The notes under the pieces are model-generated. The model was not told the DNA's origin and did not search any database. It saw nothing but the letters and a program-made list of their open reading frames with translations. The position numbers were made by a program, and so were the translations under genes. 64,000 nt of DNA from Candidatus Nitrososphaera gargensis Ga9.2 (GTDB lineage: Archaea > Thermoproteota > Nitrososphaeria > Nitrososphaerales > Nitrososphaeraceae), in NCBI RefSeq assembly GCF_000303155.1, contig NC_018719.1, positions 620,001-684,000 on the forward strand. The letters run 5' to 3'. Shown here in pieces: positions 14,002 to 47,612 of this stretch. The first letter of the stretch is position 1. Each line of letters starts with the position of its first letter.

Positions 14002-14718
14002 TCACTCTATGATTATTTTACCCTTCATGAATGGGTGAACTGTACAATAATAGTCAAAGGTGCCCGTCTCTTCCAAGCGACTTACAGGCAGACTGAACTT
14101 CTGTCCTTTGCCTATTGAACCTGAATCAAACATATTGCCTGTCTCTGGGTCACTAATGCCGATGCCGCTTGTTACTGTATGTGGTGCTGCATCTTCATTT
14201 ACCCAAATTATAACACTATCTCTGCTTGCAGTCACTATAGTTGGTTCATAAGCAGGATTGCCTTGAATCGACGAACCTTCAAGTATTTTTATAGAGATTT
14301 CATTAGCTATCTGTTGCCCGCCAGTGCTAAATGCAGCTTCTTCTCCATTGCTACCTAACTGCATTACAGTCGGCAACTGACTCCAATCTAAGCTGGCTTT
14401 TGCAAAGCCTGTTCCAATGCCAAGCGACACCAAGAAGAATATCAACCACGTCCTCAGGTTACTCATGCTCTGCCTGTGCCGGAGTGCAAAGAATAGCCCT
14501 ACCCACAGACTGCCCCATATCACATTGCTGTAGAAGAATATGCCACCATATTGCGAGGCTGGCTCATATACAACAAGCCATGTCTTTAATGGCTCCATCT
14601 TGCGAATATATGCCAGTATTCCCATTGCAGCGATGGCAATTGATGCAGCCACTATAGCCGCCACTACTGCGCCGGATACCTGAGTTTTTGATAGGCCAAG
14701 TGATGGTATCAACGACAT
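14002..14718 (-). CDS. Membrane-anchored cupredoxin (plastocyanin-like)
   Basis: About 238 residues from the Met at 14718. Three transmembrane segments come first (VSGAVVAAIVAASIAIAAMG, GIFFYSNVIWGSLWVGLFFA, LRTWLIFFLVSLGIGTG). A C-terminal type-1 copper domain follows, with VIIWVNEDAAPHTVTSG (first His), DYYCTVHPFMKGK (Cys, second His, Met) and the terminal KIIIE strand. All four copper ligands are present. In ammonia oxidisers such proteins replace cytochromes as electron carriers. It directly follows the membrane gene at 14744, so the two are very likely co-transcribed and physically linked. Confidence 0.85.
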   Translation of the reverse strand: MSLIPSLGLSKTQVSGAVVAAIVAASIAIAAMGILAYIRKMEPLKTWLVVYEPASQYGGIFFYSNVIWGSLWVGLFFALRHRQSMSNLRTWLIFFLVSLGIGTGFAKASLDWSQLPTVMQLGSNGEEAAFSTGGQQIANEISIKILEGSSIQGNPAYEPTIVTASRDSVIIWVNEDAAPHTVTSGIGISDPETGNMFDSGSIGKGQKFSLPVSRLEETGTFDYYCTVHPFMKGKIIIE

Positions 14719-14743
14719 TTTTCCTTTCTCACTCTCCTTTCGC

Positions 14744-15361
14744 CTACCCTTGCACCGACGCAATCTTTGTCGGCACTATGCCCATCAGTGAAATGTAGAG
14801 TGCATAGAAGATTGCAAGCGATATCAGAATTATCATCATGTTTTTCACGCCTGCATCTGTAAACATCCTCTCCTTGAAATGCCATGTGAGATATGCTACA
14901 AGCCCTGTCCACATGGTGCCTACCAGTCCTAGGTATTCCATCACCTCAAACATCGGCGCATGAGCAAATGGGAATATCTCCAATATCTTGGACTTGGCGC
15001 TGTCTGGGGTCGGCAGCCTGTATTCAATATAGCCTATTGTGCCAGTGATTTCAATGAGGAATGCTGAAGCCACTGCGGTAAATGCCAGAACTTTCAGCAC
15101 ATTGATTGAATCAAGACGGCGCTGAACCTGCTGTCCCATAGAAGTTGAGCCAAATATGAGCACTCCGATAAATCCTGCTCCGGACATTATGGCAAGGACT
15201 GTGTAATAGTCATGTATGATCATGACGCTTTCAATTCCTTTGCCGACCATCTGGCCGAGTATTACGACGCCTATCGACACAAGAACTGAACCTCCGACAA
15301 CAAGTATTGCAAGCGCTTTTGCAGCAGTTAACGATGATCCCTTGTTAGATTCAATTTGCAT
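14744..15361 (-). CDS. Polytopic membrane protein paired with cupredoxin
   Basis: About 205 residues from ATG 15361. Five hydrophobic segments: LAILVVGGSVLVSIGVVILG, YYTVLAIMSGAGFIGVLIFG, VLAFTAVASAFLIEITGTIG, LGLVGTMWTGLVAYLTW and NMMIILISLAIFYALYIS. A conserved polar loop, IFPFAHAPMFEVMEYLG, contains a His that could face a cofactor or quinone. I do not recognise the family with certainty. Order and spacing with the cupredoxin gene suggest a two-component electron-transfer module in the membrane. It is divergent from the HTH gene at 15501. Confidence 0.7.
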   Translation of the reverse strand: MQIESNKGSSLTAAKALAILVVGGSVLVSIGVVILGQMVGKGIESVMIIHDYYTVLAIMSGAGFIGVLIFGSTSMGQQVQRRLDSINVLKVLAFTAVASAFLIEITGTIGYIEYRLPTPDSAKSKILEIFPFAHAPMFEVMEYLGLVGTMWTGLVAYLTWHFKERMFTDAGVKNMMIILISLAIFYALYISLMGIVPTKIASVQG

Positions 15362-15500: not shown

Positions 15501-15908
15501 ATGAAAAGGAGAAATAATGATGTCACAACACAGACCTTGCATAACGAGCCAAAGGATATATTATTAATGCTCCAAGAACTGGGGGACAAAATATCATTCT
15601 CGATACTGAAATCAACAATAAAGAAGTGCAAATCGGTCGCTGAAATTTCTAGAGAAAATAACATACCACTAAGTTCGGTTTATAGAAAAATTCCAGATTT
15701 GCAGAACATGGGTATTGTTGCAATAGAAACAATAGTTACTGATGCTTCTACAGGCAAAAGGATTGCAATGTATAGGAGCAAGATAAGGTCAGTACACTTT
15801 CACCTAGATGAAAATGGTGCAAAATTAATGTTCGAGAATAACAACAATAGTTCGCTTACAGAGAGGAGTAATAATAGTAGAAGTGTGTCTACACTAATAA
15901 CAGTATAA
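15501..15908 (+). CDS. Winged-helix transcriptional regulator
   Basis: 135 residues. The HTH is ISFSILKSTIKKCKSVAEIS, RENNIPLSSVYRKIPDLQNM and GIVAIE, an ArsR/TrmB-like arrangement with a recognition helix at SSVYRKIPDL. After it come a wing region (IAMYRSKIRSVHF) and a disordered Asn/Ser-rich tail. It is divergent from the cupredoxin pair and may control it; this is a guess from position only. Confidence 0.75.
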   Translation: MKRRNNDVTTQTLHNEPKDILLMLQELGDKISFSILKSTIKKCKSVAEISRENNIPLSSVYRKIPDLQNMGIVAIETIVTDASTGKRIAMYRSKIRSVHFHLDENGAKLMFENNNNSSLTERSNNSRSVSTLITV

Positions 15909-16270: not shown

Positions 16271-18448
16271 ATGAAGCAACATCTAAGACTAGCAAGTATT
16301 GCATTGGCAGCCATTCTAGTGATGGCAACAGCAGCAGCCACTACATCTGTTGCAACAGGATCTCTTGAAAAAAGAGCACAGGCACAGCATGCAGACAATG
16401 AGGAAGGAATCAGCAGTACTACTGCACTAGTCAGATTCGTAACTAATGTAGAATTTGTCAGAGGACATCTTGAAAAGGCTATAGAGAACAAGCAAGCTGG
16501 CAGTACCGAACTAGCTGTAGCTCATGCAGGACACCCAATTGAAGAAGTGTATACACTGATCCATCAGGATATATCTGTCAAAGATAGTCAGTTAGCCTCT
16601 AACTTAAAGTCAAAATTAGAAGCATTACCAAACACTGTTTCTTCAGATTCTATTTCAACCTTTACACAAAAAGTGACAGAGATTAATGGATTGCTTGACC
16701 AAGCTGTACAAAAAGTAGCAGCAGGTAGCGAAGCACAAGAGGAAGCCAACTTTACTATTGAGATAATAACGGGTCTATTAGAAACAGCAAACATAGAATA
16801 TGAAGAGGCGGTAGCAAACGGACAAATCATCGAAATGATCGAATACCAAGATGCCTCTGCCTTTATCAACAGAGCAAATGTATTATTCAAAACCATCCAG
16901 ACAGGGATAGACGATCATGAAGCTGAGGAAATTGTTGAATTTATGGATGAATTGAACTTCCGCGTAGCCTCAAAGACAGACCCCTCGCAGGTAGAGACAG
17001 TCATCCAAGGAATAATACGTGAGCTTGAAGAAGCATCATCTGCTGCAAACGAGCATGCAGAGTTTGTCGCTAACTTGGAATTCATCAAAGGACACTTGGC
17101 TCAGGCAGTAGCCAACAAGCAAGCTGGCAGTACCGAACTAGCTGTAGCTCATGCAGGACACCCAATTGAAGAAGTTTATGCTCTAATTGAGCCAGAAATT
17201 TCAGAACACAATTCTTCACTTAATACAAAGCTTAAAGAAGCATTGACAAACCTTGCAAACCAAATCCATTCCCTTTCTACCTCTGCTGTTCAGACAATGG
17301 TGACAGAAATTAATGGCATGCTAGACGAGGCCGGGACATCGGTGGTAAGCGAAGCTGAGAGAAATGACCCAAAGTTCAATGCAATGGTAATCCTATTGCT
17401 TCTAGCAACTGCGCAAGTTGAATATGAAGAAGCTGTTGAAAATGGCGAGATTGTAGAGATGATTGAATATCAGGACTCTACGGCATTTATTGCGAGATCC
17501 CAGATCATTTCAGATTCCATAAAGAGTAAGATCCCGGCCCACAAAGCAGAAGAAATACAAGAGTTTTACGCGGAGCTCAACAGCCTTACAAAGTCGAACG
17601 CCAGTTTTGAGCAAGTAAAGACGGTCTTTGGAGGCATAATACACGAATATGAGGAAATATTTGGATTGGAAGCGATGGAAGAAGAGGAGCCAGGTGAACA
17701 TGAAAACAGTTCAACAACAACTACTAAATCACTTGGATACATCGAAAACATCAGAAAGATACTGACTAAGCTATCAGAAGCCTACAGGGCAGGCAATTAT
17801 GCCGAAGCAGACAGGCTTGCTGTTGATGCGTATCTTAACAACTTTGAGTTTGTAGAGGGGGATCTTGAAAAAAGCGGCAACAGAGCTCTAATGCTCGAGA
17901 TAGAGCAGTTGATGAGAATTGAACTAAGGGAGATGATAAAGGGTAAAGCATCTGTCGGAGAAATAGACGCACATATCGCCAAGATCAATTCCAAGCTTGA
18001 TCAGGCGGTTAATGCGCTATCTCCAGATACTATTGCCAAAACGACAGCAACAAGAGGATATCATATCGTCAGGACAACAATTACACAACAATCAGAACCT
18101 CATGATGCAGAAGGTCACTCCGCGCACCAAGTTGTATACATGGTGTATCCAACGGAAGGTATGATATACGAGGGATCAATCACATTCACATCAACCAGAA
18201 GTGTAGACGTCTTTGTCTACCATGATGTTACATGGGCAGAAGCAGAAGACACTGCCGGCCTGAACATACACAAGGTCAACGGAAGGCTCTACGCGGTCAC
18301 CACCTTGTTGAAAAATGCAAGCTCTGGAACAGTACAATTTGCTGGTGCAGGTATACTAGCGCACGTCCACTCTGAGACTGAGGGCGAGGGAGAGTACAAT
18401 TTGGTTGCAAGCATGGAAGTATATGGGAGGTTGTTGAGTAAACAGTAA
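16271..18448 (+). CDS. Secreted helical repeat protein, FTR1-ectodomain-like (725 aa)
   Basis: Signal peptide (LASIALAAILVMATAAATTS). Two ~220-residue helical repeats follow, each with a GHL-A motif, AHAGHPIEEVY and a Glu-rich EYEEAVANGQIIEMIEYQDA helix. A third helical part (about 480-590) has AEADRLAVDAYLNNFEFVEG and ELREMI, which resembles the extracellular helical region of FTR1-type iron permeases. The C-terminal ~130 residues form a beta domain with several His (SHPHD-like loops, VYHDVTWAEAED, AHVHSE). His and acidic clusters fit metal binding. No permease segments are present. With the two downstream paralogues it forms a cluster; the paralogue at 18961 has an iron-box-like promoter, so an iron-scavenging role is inferred. 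Confidence 0.7.
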   Translation: MKQHLRLASIALAAILVMATAAATTSVATGSLEKRAQAQHADNEEGISSTTALVRFVTNVEFVRGHLEKAIENKQAGSTELAVAHAGHPIEEVYTLIHQDISVKDSQLASNLKSKLEALPNTVSSDSISTFTQKVTEINGLLDQAVQKVAAGSEAQEEANFTIEIITGLLETANIEYEEAVANGQIIEMIEYQDASAFINRANVLFKTIQTGIDDHEAEEIVEFMDELNFRVASKTDPSQVETVIQGIIRELEEASSAANEHAEFVANLEFIKGHLAQAVANKQAGSTELAVAHAGHPIEEVYALIEPEISEHNSSLNTKLKEALTNLANQIHSLSTSAVQTMVTEINGMLDEAGTSVVSEAERNDPKFNAMVILLLLATAQVEYEEAVENGEIVEMIEYQDSTAFIARSQIISDSIKSKIPAHKAEEIQEFYAELNSLTKSNASFEQVKTVFGGIIHEYEEIFGLEAMEEEEPGEHENSSTTTTKSLGYIENIRKILTKLSEAYRAGNYAEADRLAVDAYLNNFEFVEGDLEKSGNRALMLEIEQLMRIELREMIKGKASVGEIDAHIAKINSKLDQAVNALSPDTIAKTTATRGYHIVRTTITQQSEPHDAEGHSAHQVVYMVYPTEGMIYEGSITFTSTRSVDVFVYHDVTWAEAEDTAGLNIHKVNGRLYAVTTLLKNASSGTVQFAGAGILAHVHSETEGEGEYNLVASMEVYGRLLSKQ
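16487..16548 (+). repeat. 62-bp intragenic direct repeat, copy 1
   Basis: Identical to 17114-17175. It encodes NKQAGSTELAVAHAGHPIEE in each of the two helical repeats of the 725-residue protein. Identity at all synonymous sites implies recent duplication or conversion. Confidence 0.9.
17114..17175 (+). repeat. 62-bp intragenic direct repeat, copy 2
   Basis: Second copy of 16487-16548, in the second helical repeat of the same gene. Confidence 0.9.
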
Positions 18449-18931
18449 AAGTGGGTTAAAGGAAGAACGGCGACCTTTTTCTTTTTTATTTTCCTTAATT
18501 TGTAAGTAATAATATATTATTATTTTGCTAGTCGTGAGCAAAAAATGAGTCAAGGTCCAGTAAGACTATGAAATAGATAGCGGCTTCATCACAATACTGA
18601 TAACAACTCCGTTTTAGGGATCACATTGGCTAGTATTTTTTGAAAATTTTTTTGTGATATTCTTTTCACTTCTCAAAATTACCAGAACTGTGATATAAGA
18701 TATTCTCTTTGCTCCCGAGAATCAAAGTTGTTTTTATGCTAGGAAGCAAAAGGAATATCCTCATCTTTTAATGCCTGCAGAGTTCAAGAATCATAATCTA
18801 CAATGAGATTTGACCCTCTGTTCACATACACAGCTTATGTCGGTTAGTTATTGATGTTGTATAGATTTTTTGCACAAATAAGACAGCTGTGAATCTTTTA
18901 CTGTTCCTATTTTTCGCAACCATTAAAAGCA
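18449..18931. other. Gene-free stretch with a T-rich terminator
   Basis: A T-rich run (CCTTTTTCTTTTTTATTTTCC) about 25-45 nt after the stop at 18448 is a probable terminator. The rest is AT-rich and shows no reading frame or RNA gene that I can support. Confidence 0.5.
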
Positions 18932-18960
18932 TAGGCTAGCCTAATTAGGCGAACCTAATT
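18932..18960 (+). promoter_or_regulatory. Double DtxR/IdeR-like iron box at the start codon
   Basis: Two overlapping palindromes: TAGGCTAGCCTA (18932-18943, perfect) and AATTAGG-CGAA-CCTAATT (18943-18960, 7-bp arms). Both resemble the DtxR-family consensus built on TTAGG...CCTAA. The second abuts the ATG at 18961, so bound repressor would cover the transcription start of a leaderless message. This predicts derepression in low iron or manganese. Confidence 0.65.
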
Positions 18961-20199
18961 ATGAAGCGTAATGAAAAATTGAATTACAAATACCGGCGTT
19001 CCATCATCGTAGTTGGAGCTGCTGCAGCAGTTTTTCTTGCGTTGTCTTGGGGGACATATCCTCACTCGTTTGCAGCACAACACCTACAGTCAGAAAACAA
19101 TCTGCCACCCAATGATGAAAATAAAACCACAATGTCTTCTATTACTACTACTGCTACTACCACTGCCGACGGCACTACTGGCGTTGCAAATGCAACGGCT
19201 GCTGATATGCCAAACGCTACGTTTGTAGAATTTGTATCAAACATAGAGCAAATAAGAGGTCACCTTGATCAAGCAGTTGCAAATAAAGAATCAGGAAACG
19301 ACACCTTGACGCAAGCGCACACGCTGCATCCAATCGGAGAAGTATATTCAAGTATTGAGGTCTTGCTAGCAAATCAAAATAGCACATTGAACCAGACCCT
19401 CTCTGAAGCACTTAAGGATCTTTCATCCAATGTTGCAACTACCTCAGTCCAGCAATTTGAGAATCAGACACGTGCAATCGATATGATACTGAACCAGACT
19501 GTACAGGCGGTAATACCTACTTTTGAATTGAATAACACAGCATTTAATGCAAGTGTAGTGGCGCGCCTGCTCGATATTGCAGGGCATGAATACGAGGAGG
19601 CCGTTGCAAACGGAATGATAAAAGAAATCGTAGAATATCAAGACGCGCAGGCATTCATCCATAGGGCAGAGGCCATATTCAATTCTACATCGGACACCAT
19701 AGATGAAGCAATGGCACATGAAGTACAGGAAGTGAACGAATTCTTTGCAGTGTTGAACAGCACAGTTGACAGCAAAGGCGACCCACAAACTGTTGAAACT
19801 ACTATAAATGGCATCATACATGAGCTGGAAGAAATAACTGGTTTTTCATCGAGTCAGCTGCTGGGAGGAGAAGAAGCTGGCACAACAGCGGAAGAACAGG
19901 ACCCTATCGCAATAATAAACAACATAAAGTCTCTGCTTGATAAATTGCTATCGGCATACCAGTCACAGAACTACGATGAAGCAGAGAGCATAGCTATAGA
20001 GGCATACTTGGAGAATTATGAGCATATTGAAGCGCCTATTGCAGAGCATGATGAGCAGTTAATGTTACAAACAGAAACAATGCTAAGGGAAGAGCTCAGG
20101 CAGATGATAGAGGATAAGGCTCCAGTGGATCAGATACAACAGCATATTGCAAATATAGAGGCCAATTTGGATAAAGCTGCCAGCTTGCTGCAGCAATAA
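18961..20199 (+). CDS. Secreted helical protein, FTR1-ectodomain-like, iron-box controlled
   Basis: 412 residues. A signal segment (SIIVVGAAAAVFLALSWGTY) and a Thr-rich linker precede one helical repeat: EFVSNIEQIRGHLDQAVANK, AHTLHPIGEVYSSIEVL, HEYEEAVANGMIKEIVEYQD. The C-terminal helical part is AESIAIEAYLENYEHIEAPI and EELRQMIEDKAPVDQIQQH, resembling the FTR1 extracellular region. It matches the protein at 16271 but has one repeat and no beta domain. ATG 18961 follows directly on the iron box. It is 24 bp upstream of the next paralogue and likely in an operon with it. Metal capture at the cell surface is inferred. Confidence 0.75.
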   Translation: MKRNEKLNYKYRRSIIVVGAAAAVFLALSWGTYPHSFAAQHLQSENNLPPNDENKTTMSSITTTATTTADGTTGVANATAADMPNATFVEFVSNIEQIRGHLDQAVANKESGNDTLTQAHTLHPIGEVYSSIEVLLANQNSTLNQTLSEALKDLSSNVATTSVQQFENQTRAIDMILNQTVQAVIPTFELNNTAFNASVVARLLDIAGHEYEEAVANGMIKEIVEYQDAQAFIHRAEAIFNSTSDTIDEAMAHEVQEVNEFFAVLNSTVDSKGDPQTVETTINGIIHELEEITGFSSSQLLGGEEAGTTAEEQDPIAIINNIKSLLDKLLSAYQSQNYDEAESIAIEAYLENYEHIEAPIAEHDEQLMLQTETMLREELRQMIEDKAPVDQIQQHIANIEANLDKAASLLQQ

Positions 20200-20223: not shown

Positions 20224-21339
20224 ATGAATGCCTGCAGCAGAACCATATTTTTTATGTCCATGGCGACAGTTCTGCTAGGCACAGCTGTGGTACTACATCT
20301 GATCAATCATGAAGTCTTTCATCATAATGCCGCCTACGCACAAGACACTACTACAGTCCTAGCTGATACAGAAGCATTAATCGTCATAGTCAACATCGAG
20401 AGAATCCGCACGCAACTCGAGCTCACAGAAAAAAGCCTCAACACAGATGATTTGGAAATGGCATTTGCTCATGCATTCATCCCGCACACTACAACATTTC
20501 CTGCGATCAAAAGTCAGCTTAGGGCCATTGACGAGCAGCCAGCCACGCAGCTTGAAGCAATGCTGACAGACCTTCCAATCAAGATTAGGACTGCGGGGAA
20601 AGATTCTGAAGGTGAGGCTAGGGATGACATAAAGCAGATTCAGACTCTGCTAGATAAAATCTCTCAAAAGGCTATAGGGTCCCAACTGATGTCAGACAAG
20701 GGAATGGTATCCAAGACAGTCGTGTTTCTTTTGCGTGACGCTGCTCAATCATACCAAGTATCCAATGCCGCCGCAGGAGGCCAAGAGCAATTTAGCCAAG
20801 TTGATTATGAAAATGCGATTAGCATTACAGCAAGAGCAGAGAGTACTTATCAGATAATTGCACCGGAGATTGACAAAAGGCGTAGAGGCGAGATTGATTC
20901 TTTCATTGCCGAGCTTTTGACCGCTTTTGATCAAAAAAGTGATATAATGAATCAATATCGCGTTTGGTTACTGCGATAGAACGAGACTTGGCTGAAGAGA
21001 TCTCTCTAAGCTCGGGCAGCACAAGCGCGACTGAACACCAGCAGTACTTTGCGACTGTACGAGAGCTACTATCAAAAGTGGTCGCTGGAGTGAAAAATGG
21101 CAATTATGAGCAGGCAGACCAGTATGCGATAACTGCTTACCTTGACAACTACGAATATCTGGAGGTCCCGATCGAAGAGCATTACCCTGAGCTAATGCTT
21201 GATATCGAAATGGAGATGAGGGAGGAGCTTAGGGCAAAAATACAGGAAGAAGAGTCGCCAGAGGCTTGTAGAGCAAGCAAGGAAATCACGTGCGGATTTA
21301 GTCAATGATCGGCGGCCGCATGATGAGGGCGAAAGATAG
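20224..21339 (+). pseudogene. Third FTR1-ectodomain-like paralogue, frameshifted
   Basis: Signal segment (MSMATVLLGTAVVLHLI), then IVIVNIERIRTQLELTEKSL, MAFAHAFIPHTTTFPAIKSQ and the acidic helix region, open to 20979. The frame then shifts by one base near 20960 and the C-terminal helical part continues as LVTAIERDLAEEI, YEQADQYAITAYLDNYEYLE and EEHYPELMLDIEMEMREEL. A second shift near 21263 is needed to reach RLVEQARKSRADLVND and the stop at 21337-21339. Two lesions suggest loss of function, though each could be a sequencing indel. The motif GHPI is replaced by AFIPH, so it diverged before it broke. Confidence 0.7.
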
Positions 21340-45824: not shown

Positions 45825-47612
45825 ATTACAACGGCGAATAGCAAAGAGCCAGAGGCAATAGTAAACCGTCTACTGTTTATTGTCATTCTCGTAGCGCTTG
45901 CAGCAATTTCAGGTGTTTCTATATTTCTAACTTATACTTCTCTCCAGAGCACTGAGGTTCGCCTAAGTCTCGCTGCTGCACAAGAACTGAGAAGTGAGAT
46001 AAGAGAGCATACAAATGATGCAGTGGCAGATATTGGTACAGAGTTGGACACCATAAGCAAGAGGATTCAGACCGCCGCATCAAGCCCAATTTTACTCAGA
46101 GGAATAGACAGTGAAGAAGCACGTATACTGCTGGATGCGACTGCTGTAGGAATGGAGGAATATGTTCAAAGTATAACATATCTTGACTCAAATGGCGTAC
46201 TCTTGTACACTACAGAAGCAGAGTTGCTTGATCAGATAGGATCGGATAGATCTGATACTATGTATTATCTGCAGGCAAAGGAAAGAAACCAGCCTATTCT
46301 TGCCGGGCCTTTCTTAACAGAGAATAATAGAATGAGCGTTTCTGTTTTGTCACCAGTATTTGCTTCTTCAGGCAGTAGCTTCAATGGAGTTCTGGCAGCA
46401 ATAATTCCCATAGAATCAATAGTAGACAAAATCGGTCAGCAACTACCGCCTACGACAGGAAAAAACCAGATTTTCATAGTAGCAACCGACGGCACAATCA
46501 TAGGGTATGGAGATGAGACAGCTATAGGTAGGAACATCTTTGACGAATTTAGGGTGCGAAATGAAATAGCAGGCAGGAACTTGCAGCTTATGATTGAAGG
46601 AAGGTCAGGGGTCTTTGAATATGATGCGCTTGACGGTCAGAGGAGAGTAGCAGTATATTCGCCTGTGACATTTTCAGGCGCTCATACATGGTCTGTTCTC
46701 ATCACTGCGCCGGCTTCCCAGAGTGAGACATTTGCTTCAGTCATCAACGATCAACGGATCTTTACTATAGTGGCTGTAATACTGATAGGGATAACATCTG
46801 CGATACTTATGATATTTATTCTTATGATTAACAAGAGGCTACAAATGATCATCCAAAAACAGAACGTACAGATAAAGAATCAGTTAAATGAACTGCAGGA
46901 TGCGTATGAAAAGCTCACCGAGCAGGACAAGATAAAAGATGAGTTTATCAATGTAGCAGCTCATGAGCTGCGCACACCTGTTCTGCCAATAATTCTAAGT
47001 GCAGAAGGATTGTCTGAGGACATTGGGACTGACAACAGCAAGATAGAGATCATTCTCAGAAATGCCAAGCGAATAAACAAGCTGACAAACGACATACTTG
47101 ACGTCAGCAGGATCAAGAGCAACACTTTCAGGCTTCAGAAGGAGAGAACCAATGTCAAAAAGCTCATTGAAGAAGCGATTCAGGACATATCCTTCTCTAA
47201 AACGGCTGAAAACAAGAACCCCAACTTGAAGATAGCATTTGAATCGCAGCTTCCTGAAAGTAAACTAGAGATCGTCGCAGATAGATCGAGACTCCATCAA
47301 GTGCTTGCCAACCTGCTGGACAACGCAGTTAACTTTACAGATGAGGGCACGATCACTGTTAGCCTGCAGCAGAACAAAGATGACCCGAGTTTTGTCGAGA
47401 TAAGGGTGGCAGACACCGGAAAGGGCATAGACCCTTCGGTAAGACCAAGGCTTTTTGAAAAATTTGTGACAAAATCTACTGCCAAGGGCACCGGTCTTGG
47501 TCTGTACCTGTGCAAGGCCATAGTTGAAGCACATGGAGGTAAGATATGGGCCGAGGACAATAGTGTAGGCAGGGGCAGCGTTTTTGTTTTTACCCTTCCA
47601 ACAAACATCTGA
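45825..47612 (+). CDS. Membrane histidine kinase with extracellular Cache sensor; possible ATT start
   Basis: From ATT 45825 the frame reads ITTANSKEPEAIVNRLLFIV, then ILVALAAISGVSIFLTYTSL (TM1). The first standard start, GTG 46023, would delete TM1, so the longer form is preferred. Sensor: VQSITYLDSNGVLLYTTEAE, MYYLQAKERNQPILAGPF, GTIIGYGDETAIGRNIFDEF. TM2: IFTIVAVILIGITSAILMIF. HisKA: FINVAAHELRTPVLPI, His at residue 380 of the long form. HATPase_c: ANLLDNAVNFTDEG, DTGKGIDP, GTGLGLYLCKAIVEAHGG. Complete catalytic set. Similar in design to the kinase at 42397. Confidence 0.82.
   Translation: MTTANSKEPEAIVNRLLFIVILVALAAISGVSIFLTYTSLQSTEVRLSLAAAQELRSEIREHTNDAVADIGTELDTISKRIQTAASSPILLRGIDSEEARILLDATAVGMEEYVQSITYLDSNGVLLYTTEAELLDQIGSDRSDTMYYLQAKERNQPILAGPFLTENNRMSVSVLSPVFASSGSSFNGVLAAIIPIESIVDKIGQQLPPTTGKNQIFIVATDGTIIGYGDETAIGRNIFDEFRVRNEIAGRNLQLMIEGRSGVFEYDALDGQRRVAVYSPVTFSGAHTWSVLITAPASQSETFASVINDQRIFTIVAVILIGITSAILMIFILMINKRLQMIIQKQNVQIKNQLNELQDAYEKLTEQDKIKDEFINVAAHELRTPVLPIILSAEGLSEDIGTDNSKIEIILRNAKRINKLTNDILDVSRIKSNTFRLQKERTNVKKLIEEAIQDISFSKTAENKNPNLKIAFESQLPESKLEIVADRSRLHQVLANLLDNAVNFTDEGTITVSLQQNKDDPSFVEIRVADTGKGIDPSVRPRLFEKFVTKSTAKGTGLGLYLCKAIVEAHGGKIWAEDNSVGRGSVFVFTLPTNI

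Follow-up and report, generated by a model that had tools for sequence, protein, structure and literature searches.

The 64-kb window (the whole stretch of DNA analyzed, 64,000 nucleotides; G000:C1:620001-684000 of the 2,833,868-bp source chromosome) contains a gene for a 412-aa helical protein whose start codon is immediately preceded by palindromes, which raised the question of what controls this gene and what its product does. The sequence-only reading had proposed a double DtxR-like iron box at a gene resembling the extracellular part of FTR1 iron permeases. We consider it probable that the double is an operator of the DtxR/IdeR type and that the product is an exported iron-handling partner of a co-regulated FTR1; the earlier reading was thus supported and largely right. 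Computation showed the box together with how it recurs and is conserved, the homology, the candidate regulator and the linkage of this regulator to FTR1. The elements at the start of the gene are as follows.

18923 to 18928, plus strand: TATA-like element TTAAAA, from the sequence; its start lies 22 bp upstream of the second box.
18931 to 18944, no strand assigned: first operator, ATAGGCTAGCCTAA, from the sequence, with one mismatch to TTAGGNNNNCCTAA.
18945 to 18958, no strand assigned: second operator, TTAGGCGAACCTAA, from the sequence, an exact TTAGGNNNNCCTAA ending 2 bp before the ATG.
18961 to 20199, plus strand: 412-aa helical protein, predicted to be secreted, a free-standing FTR1-type ectodomain according to BLASTP homology and an AF2 model.

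The region at 18931-18958 consisted of two directly abutting 14-bp palindromes placed between the TATA-like TTAAAA and the ATG at 18961, and the only other site in the window was a lone one-mismatch copy at 45953. The positions of the palindrome pair given earlier were confirmed; the two sequences described there, TAGGCTAGCCTA (18932-18943) and AATTAGG-CGAA-CCTAATT (18943-18960), share the base at 18943 and are followed by the ATG at 18961. The palindrome TTAGGNNNNCCTAA of DtxR/IdeR iron operators was therefore present at this promoter, exactly at 18945-18958 and with one mismatch at 18931-18944. In 31 of 45 related promoters, an element of the TTTAAAT, TTTATAT or TTTAAAA type began 13-23 bp before the box. 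A protein bound to the double box would cover the expected start of the transcript, which would be nearly leaderless in the 412-aa gene.

A crystallographic and binding study of IdeR proposed changing the consensus from 19 bp to the 14-bp TTAGGNNNNCCTAA, which accommodates one dimer (PMC8464063). The archaeal 14-mer was identical to this half box of the Saccharopolyspora erythraea IdeR, and iron-uptake genes are targets in both cases (PMC8464063). In contrast, the classical 19-bp DtxR box, on which two dimers overlap with a 5-bp step, was absent among neighboring sites: the archaeal 14-mers were single or abutting with a 14-bp step, and the step was never 5 bp. Of 51 steps between neighboring boxes, 47 measured 14 bp and the other 4 measured 17 bp. 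The window operator is thus a tandem 14-bp variant, distinct from the overlapping 19-bp box, so the earlier description of a double DtxR-like box held for the published IdeR/DtxR consensus but not for the classical arrangement. Further differences from the IdeR/DtxR operators are that the promoter here is an archaeal TATA promoter and that the operator is predicted from sequence.

Chance was ruled out as the origin of the palindrome by the spacing counts, control patterns and conservation. The pattern TTAGG-N(3-8)-CCTAA occurred at 16 places in the whole genome, 11 of which had a spacing of 4, with 5 shared among the other five spacings; a second-order Markov model of the window predicted about 1.9 exact spacing-4 14-mers per genome (11 observed) and no doubles in 3 Mb. 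One-mismatch 14-mers showed no excess genome-wide (29, compared with 54 for the reversed control). Because this count stays below the control, isolated one-mismatch sites are not trustworthy alone, and the argument therefore rests on exact sites, doubles and conservation. The single one-mismatch boxes at C1:607959, 616892, 1097049 and 1981067 and at window position 45953 were set aside, because sites of this class did not outnumber those of the reversed control.

With up to 2 mismatches allowed, the 28-bp double was found in 36 of 61 family genomes and in every one of the 12 genera sampled from the family; the reversed pattern used as a control gave 0 hits. Among 120 genomes drawn from the class, 22 contained the double, all from the same order, and none of the 37 genomes outside the order did; in this draw, one control hit also turned up in two genomes from a different family of that order. 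As a separate observation, a drifted form of the 28-bp double, TTAGAnnnnCCTAA, occurs once per genome, without an obvious target ORF, in several members of another family of the order (L256-L266).

We found that the box recurs at FTR1 and at other metal genes when the genome is searched for it, mostly at promoters. Its positions in the source genome are as follows.

C1:552505: single exact box at the promoter of the FTR1 fusion.
C1:578834 and 578848: double box, 118-aa winged-helix (HTH) gene.
C1:579267: site 3' of the 118-aa winged-helix gene, without a clear gene.
C1:638931 and 638945: double box, 412-aa window gene.
C1:955692 and 955706: double box ending at the ATG of a 534-aa secreted ectodomain gene.
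C1:1616604: single box, hydantoinase-family gene.
C1:1689466: single box, run of two short ORFs and a Dps/ferritin gene (PF00210).
C1:2783454 and 2783468: double box, ORF-less conserved transcript candidate.

The relatives identified by sequence were Nitrososphaera and Nitrosocosmicus. In relatives, the box stood before genes for ZIP transporters and for the winged-helix family, before the Dps run and before ectodomain and FTR1 genes; its recurrence at FTR1 and further metal genes suggests that an iron-response network is conserved in these archaea. An exact box was located no more than 200 bp upstream of 36 of 48 distinct FTR1-fusion genes (those with enough upstream sequence), whereas spacings of 0-3 or 5-10 gave no box there and the five control palindromes were absent. 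The FTR1-fusion genes without an exact box were mostly from marine genomes, some of which had a one-mismatch site; in marine species the box seems to have drifted toward TTAGA. The closest ortholog of the 412-aa protein (61% identity) was found in Nitrososphaera sp. HEB_FP_1_bin.28 (G058), where a perfect double box likewise occupies the -30/-16 positions of the gene: the first site is an exact TTAGGCTGGCCTAA at the equivalent place, and the second 14-mer is identical and at the same distance to the start. Within 6.5 kb of this ortholog lie an FTR1 fusion with an upstream double box, a DtxR gene and a hydantoinase gene. Among orthologs at about 50% identity, those of 3 of 5 genomes retained one site, TTAGGTTCAACTAA, with one mismatch and close to the start. 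Free-standing ectodomain genes from a second family of this order (L252, L254) had a double box extending into the start codon. Only 4 of 36 other free-standing ectodomain genes had an exact box. Since most of them, including the 725-aa neighbor of the window gene, lack it, the ectodomain family is not uniformly iron-controlled.

Two DtxR-family genes of the source genome exceeded the Pfam cut-off, which rules out the absence of a DtxR homologue, and one of them encodes iron-type ligands, as in the genomes with IdeR/DtxR operators. This iron-type protein (G000:C1:1140557-1141018) matched PF01325 and PF02742 over the cut-offs. Upon alignment with DtxR (1p92), the primary ligands M10, C102, E105 and H106 were found to be kept, whereas relatives of the manganese type carry D and E/A in place of M10 and C102. 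In the ancillary metal site, the E83 position was kept, but H79 and H98 were not; the aligned DtxR chain itself has A at 79. Of 36 good family genomes, 33 encoded the protein at near full length (73-90% identity), a count that leaves out MntR-type matches and rises to 36 of 36 with them. Of the remaining three genomes, G048 and G053 contained contig-edge DtxR fragments and G045 contained none. In addition, the gene was located within about 8 kb of the FTR1 fusion in 17 genomes (G001, G005, G010, G013, G015, G021, G022, G027, G028, G030, G033, G034, G039, G040, G051, G058 and G060).

The second DtxR-family protein suggests another reader. The genome has a clear MntR ortholog at G000:C1:1649005 (PRK03902 over the cut-off, 145.7 bits), and ZIP transporters and Dps would suit manganese as well as iron, so that the regulon could answer to manganese or to both metals. 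We regard this as quite unlikely, as the most constant target of the box is the iron permease FTR1, it is the iron-type DtxR whose gene shows linkage with FTR1 and with boxed ZIP genes, and the 14-mer is that of the iron IdeR/DtxR consensus. Alternatively, the 118-aa winged-helix protein could read the box as an autoregulator, with DtxR not involved: its own promoter has a double box, its gene is the commonest double-box target in relatives, and the window contains a paralog at 15501. This protein matches no metalloregulator family, and its close family is missing in genera g4, g5 and g9 and in nearly all of g8 (best matches about 30% identity; the g8 exception is one genome with 6% contamination). 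These four genera, mostly without FTR1-type ectodomains, nevertheless have a double box before a ZIP gene, mostly beside the DtxR gene. Because they keep the box and DtxR without the winged-helix family, DtxR is the likely reader; such an autoregulator is very doubtful, and as the sole reader of the box the winged-helix protein was rejected as unlikely, being absent from genera that have the box. It may instead be a second-tier regulator. The box is most likely read by the iron-type DtxR protein, judging from the sequence comparisons. DtxR-family control of archaeal metal uptake would be common to this system and to the Idr1/Idr2 regulons of Halobacterium; the differences are the ammonia-oxidizing hosts and the tandem 14-bp boxes. 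Leyn and Rodionov (2015) reportedly surveyed archaeal DtxR regulons, and the regulon may in part be known already through overlap with that survey. In the copper-limitation transcriptome of N. viennensis, FTR1 and DtxR are unmentioned (PMC7785015).

To describe the product, we compared the 412-aa protein with its neighbors and with the FTR1 fusion. The relevant features of the window are as follows.

14002 to 14763, minus strand: membrane protein with a cupredoxin domain (PF00127, E 4e-7).
15501 to 15908, plus strand: 135-aa winged-helix protein, 42% paralog of the boxed HTH gene at G000:C1:578.9 kb.
16271 to 18448, plus strand: 725-aa paralog with two ectodomain copies, 41% and 35% identical to the 412-aa protein over two stretches; no upstream box.
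20224 to 20979, plus strand: N-terminal ORF of the third member, 55% identical to aa 12-222 of the FTR1 fusion.
20964 to 21308, plus strand: C-terminal ORF of the third member in another frame, 71% identical to aa 229-330 of the FTR1 fusion.

Residues 94-410 of the 412-aa protein aligned with the ectodomain of the FTR1 fusion with 28.8% identity over 320 aa (BLASTP, E 5e-28), which bears out the proposed likeness to the extracellular part of FTR1. By eye, the N-terminus MKRNEKLNYKYRRSIIVVGAAAAVFLALSWGTYPHSFAAQ looks like a signal peptide. The ectodomain is not covered by any Pfam or NCBIfam family. The homology also confirmed a three-member cluster (16271-18448, 18961-20199 and 20224-21308), except that a frameshift divides the third member into two ORFs and that this member ends before any permease; it would be either a truncated duplicate of the FTR1-fusion ectodomain gene, in decay, or a sequencing error. 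The suggested lack of the permease applied only locally: a search for FTR1 found the full fusion 84 kb away, at C1:552.5 kb, with the ectodomain, the permease domain (PF03239) and the REGLE and REGFE motifs kept. The 412-aa protein itself was rejected as a permease since it has no PF03239 match. Additionally, a relative of the cupredoxin protein adjoins an ectodomain paralog in at least two other genomes (L127, L128). Some ectodomain proteins (L023:1586-3190, L088:1396-2514) end with PEFPL followed by a hydrophobic segment and arginines, similar to a sorting signal of the archaeosortase type; NCBIfam returned no match for these ends, and the 412-aa protein has no such anchor.

The AF2 model of the 412-aa protein revealed three consecutive four-helix bundles, with 268 residues at pLDDT >= 90; bundles 1-2 modeled alone reached a pLDDT of 96.7. 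Comparison of 23 relatives identified invariant polar residues, among which H101, H120, H123 and E127, then E210, E225 and D228, and finally E354, E357 and E372 are candidate metal ligands. The bundles are as follows.

19216 to 19512, plus strand: four-helix bundle 1, aa 86-184, with invariant E96, H101, H120, H123 and E127 (HPIxE motif).
19537 to 19839, plus strand: four-helix bundle 2, aa 193-293, with invariant E210, Y211, E225, Q227 and D228.
19903 to 20193, plus strand: four-helix bundle 3, aa 315-411, with the AYLxNYExIE motif and invariant E354, E357, E372 and R376.

In a Foldseek comparison of bundles 1-2 with solved structures, Algp7 (EfeO-like), EfeO and EfeM accounted for five of the six best rows with probabilities of 0.84-1.00, but the E-values of 0.04-0.1 were below significance and the TM scores were about 0.4. 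The fold likeness of the model to EfeO/EfeM is therefore suggestive only; the protein was not placed in an unrelated fold, although the similarity that was found is weak. A second fold search (VIA-align) gave mostly one-bundle matches to common helical proteins, and the absence of EfeO/EfeM from its best 50 rows excludes nothing. The PDB sequence search was empty for the 412-aa protein, and profile matches were insignificant. Membership in the M75/EfeO family by sequence was rejected, as none of 23 members had an M75/imelysin Pfam match. The invariant H120, H123, P124, I125 and E127 form the HPIxE motif, which is one residue longer than the HxxE of EfeO/EfeM.

The top Foldseek hit for bundles 1-2 was the M domain of an alpha-catenin homolog, and single bundles matched many unrelated helical proteins. 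These matches would suit a structural surface or adhesion protein with catenin/vinculin/talin-like bundles that is iron-regulated but is not an iron-binding partner of FTR1. Matches between common helical bundles weigh little, however, and the direct sequence homology is to an FTR1-fused domain, the invariant polar residues include H and E, and the homologous gene of marine relatives lies directly upstream of FTR1 in the same gene run. We therefore consider an adhesion role unlikely, and an iron-repressed, secreted, iron-binding partner of FTR1 is the most likely identity of the 412-aa protein from these comparisons.

Known systems provide precedents for such a partner. EfeUOB/M combines an FTR1-family permease with helical extracytoplasmic partners (PMC9174327), and the system described here likewise has a permease of this family, and helical extracytoplasmic partners with predicted metal binding; a conserved H..E motif is seen in the 412-aa protein. 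Compared with EfeO, EfeM and Algp7 (peptidase-M75/imelysin), the 412-aa protein has no M75 Pfam match, three bundles instead of two, HPIxE instead of HxxE and weak fold similarity. An FTR1 permease with a separate extracytoplasmic protein is also common to P19-cFtr1, FtrABCD and Fet3-Ftr1, and the window contains a cupredoxin membrane protein; in contrast, the partner here is a paralog of the permease ectodomain and not a copper oxidase or a P19 fold. The free ectodomains seem to have arisen when the ectodomain of the permease itself was duplicated.

Binding, the direction of repression, iron as the effector, export, iron binding and contact with FTR1 we infer as follows. The reader would be a metal-activated repressor of the DtxR/IdeR type, most likely G000:C1:1140557-1141018. 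With iron in the cell, repressor dimers would fill both 14-bp sites between the TATA box and the start codon and block the promoter; with iron absent, the repressor would leave and the 412-aa gene would be expressed. Repression by iron is the proposed direction because of the site position and the DtxR precedent. The exported protein, a detached ectodomain of the co-regulated FTR1 permease, would then capture or hand over iron at the cell surface, in a role like that of EfeO/EfeM or P19 in bacterial FTR1 systems. Counting against this mechanism are the DtxR residues H79 and H98 that are not kept, a 14-bp step that differs from the 5-bp step of solved DtxR/IdeR complexes, the scarcity of exact boxes at other free-standing ectodomain genes (4/36), the EfeO/EfeM fold match below significance and a boxed Dps gene run that is no obvious iron-uptake target.

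Iron uptake in ammonia-oxidizing archaea has been described as open, and Nitrosopumilus maritimus was reported to be without iron-specific transporters, its ferric reductase being unknown (PMC6776035, PMC9723733). One regulator, one operator and a defined target set across the order would make iron control in globally important nitrifiers directly testable, and the results provide a function hypothesis for a large family of helical, secreted proteins that has no name as well as for the hydantoinase-family gene that travels with FTR1. Tentatively, ammonia-oxidizing archaea could possess an iron-starvation program of their own, with tandem 14-bp DtxR sites, free secreted iron collectors multiplied from the ectodomain of the permease, a second-tier winged-helix regulator and, in Nitrososphaera, a small regulatory RNA under the same switch.

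The hydantoinase/oxoprolinase-family gene was boxed in the source genome (L024:3124-5250, G000:C1:1616.6 kb), located beside DtxR and FTR1 in G058 (L105:6121-6477) and found directly 3' of FTR1 in marine ammonia-oxidizing archaea (L206, L208, L220, L223, L225, L227). The marine gene order was two winged-helix genes, a free-standing ectodomain, the FTR1 fusion and the hydantoinase (L208:1630-6903, L220:867-7371), a run that is likely an iron operon judging from this order; the cultured model of this marine group has been reported to have no iron-specific transporters (PMC6776035).

A perfect double box and a TATA element were also observed on the minus strand at L026:2836-2985 (G000:C1:2783335-2783484) with no ORF behind them. 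This locus occurred once in each of four Nitrososphaera genomes (L026, L053, L062, L132) and nowhere else in the sampled family, and Rfam returned no match for it. A short peptide is unlikely because of a 2-nt length change inside the core. The conserved core, GGAAGnCTGGC..TGGCATCTACCA, was accompanied by a strong GC hairpin whose stem pairs covary between species (CCTGCCC/GGGCAGG, CCCGCCC/GGGCGGG and CCCGG/CCGGG), and the locus is a candidate for a metal-controlled small RNA, which, if so driven, would be a counterpart of the bacterial iron-sparing RNAs.
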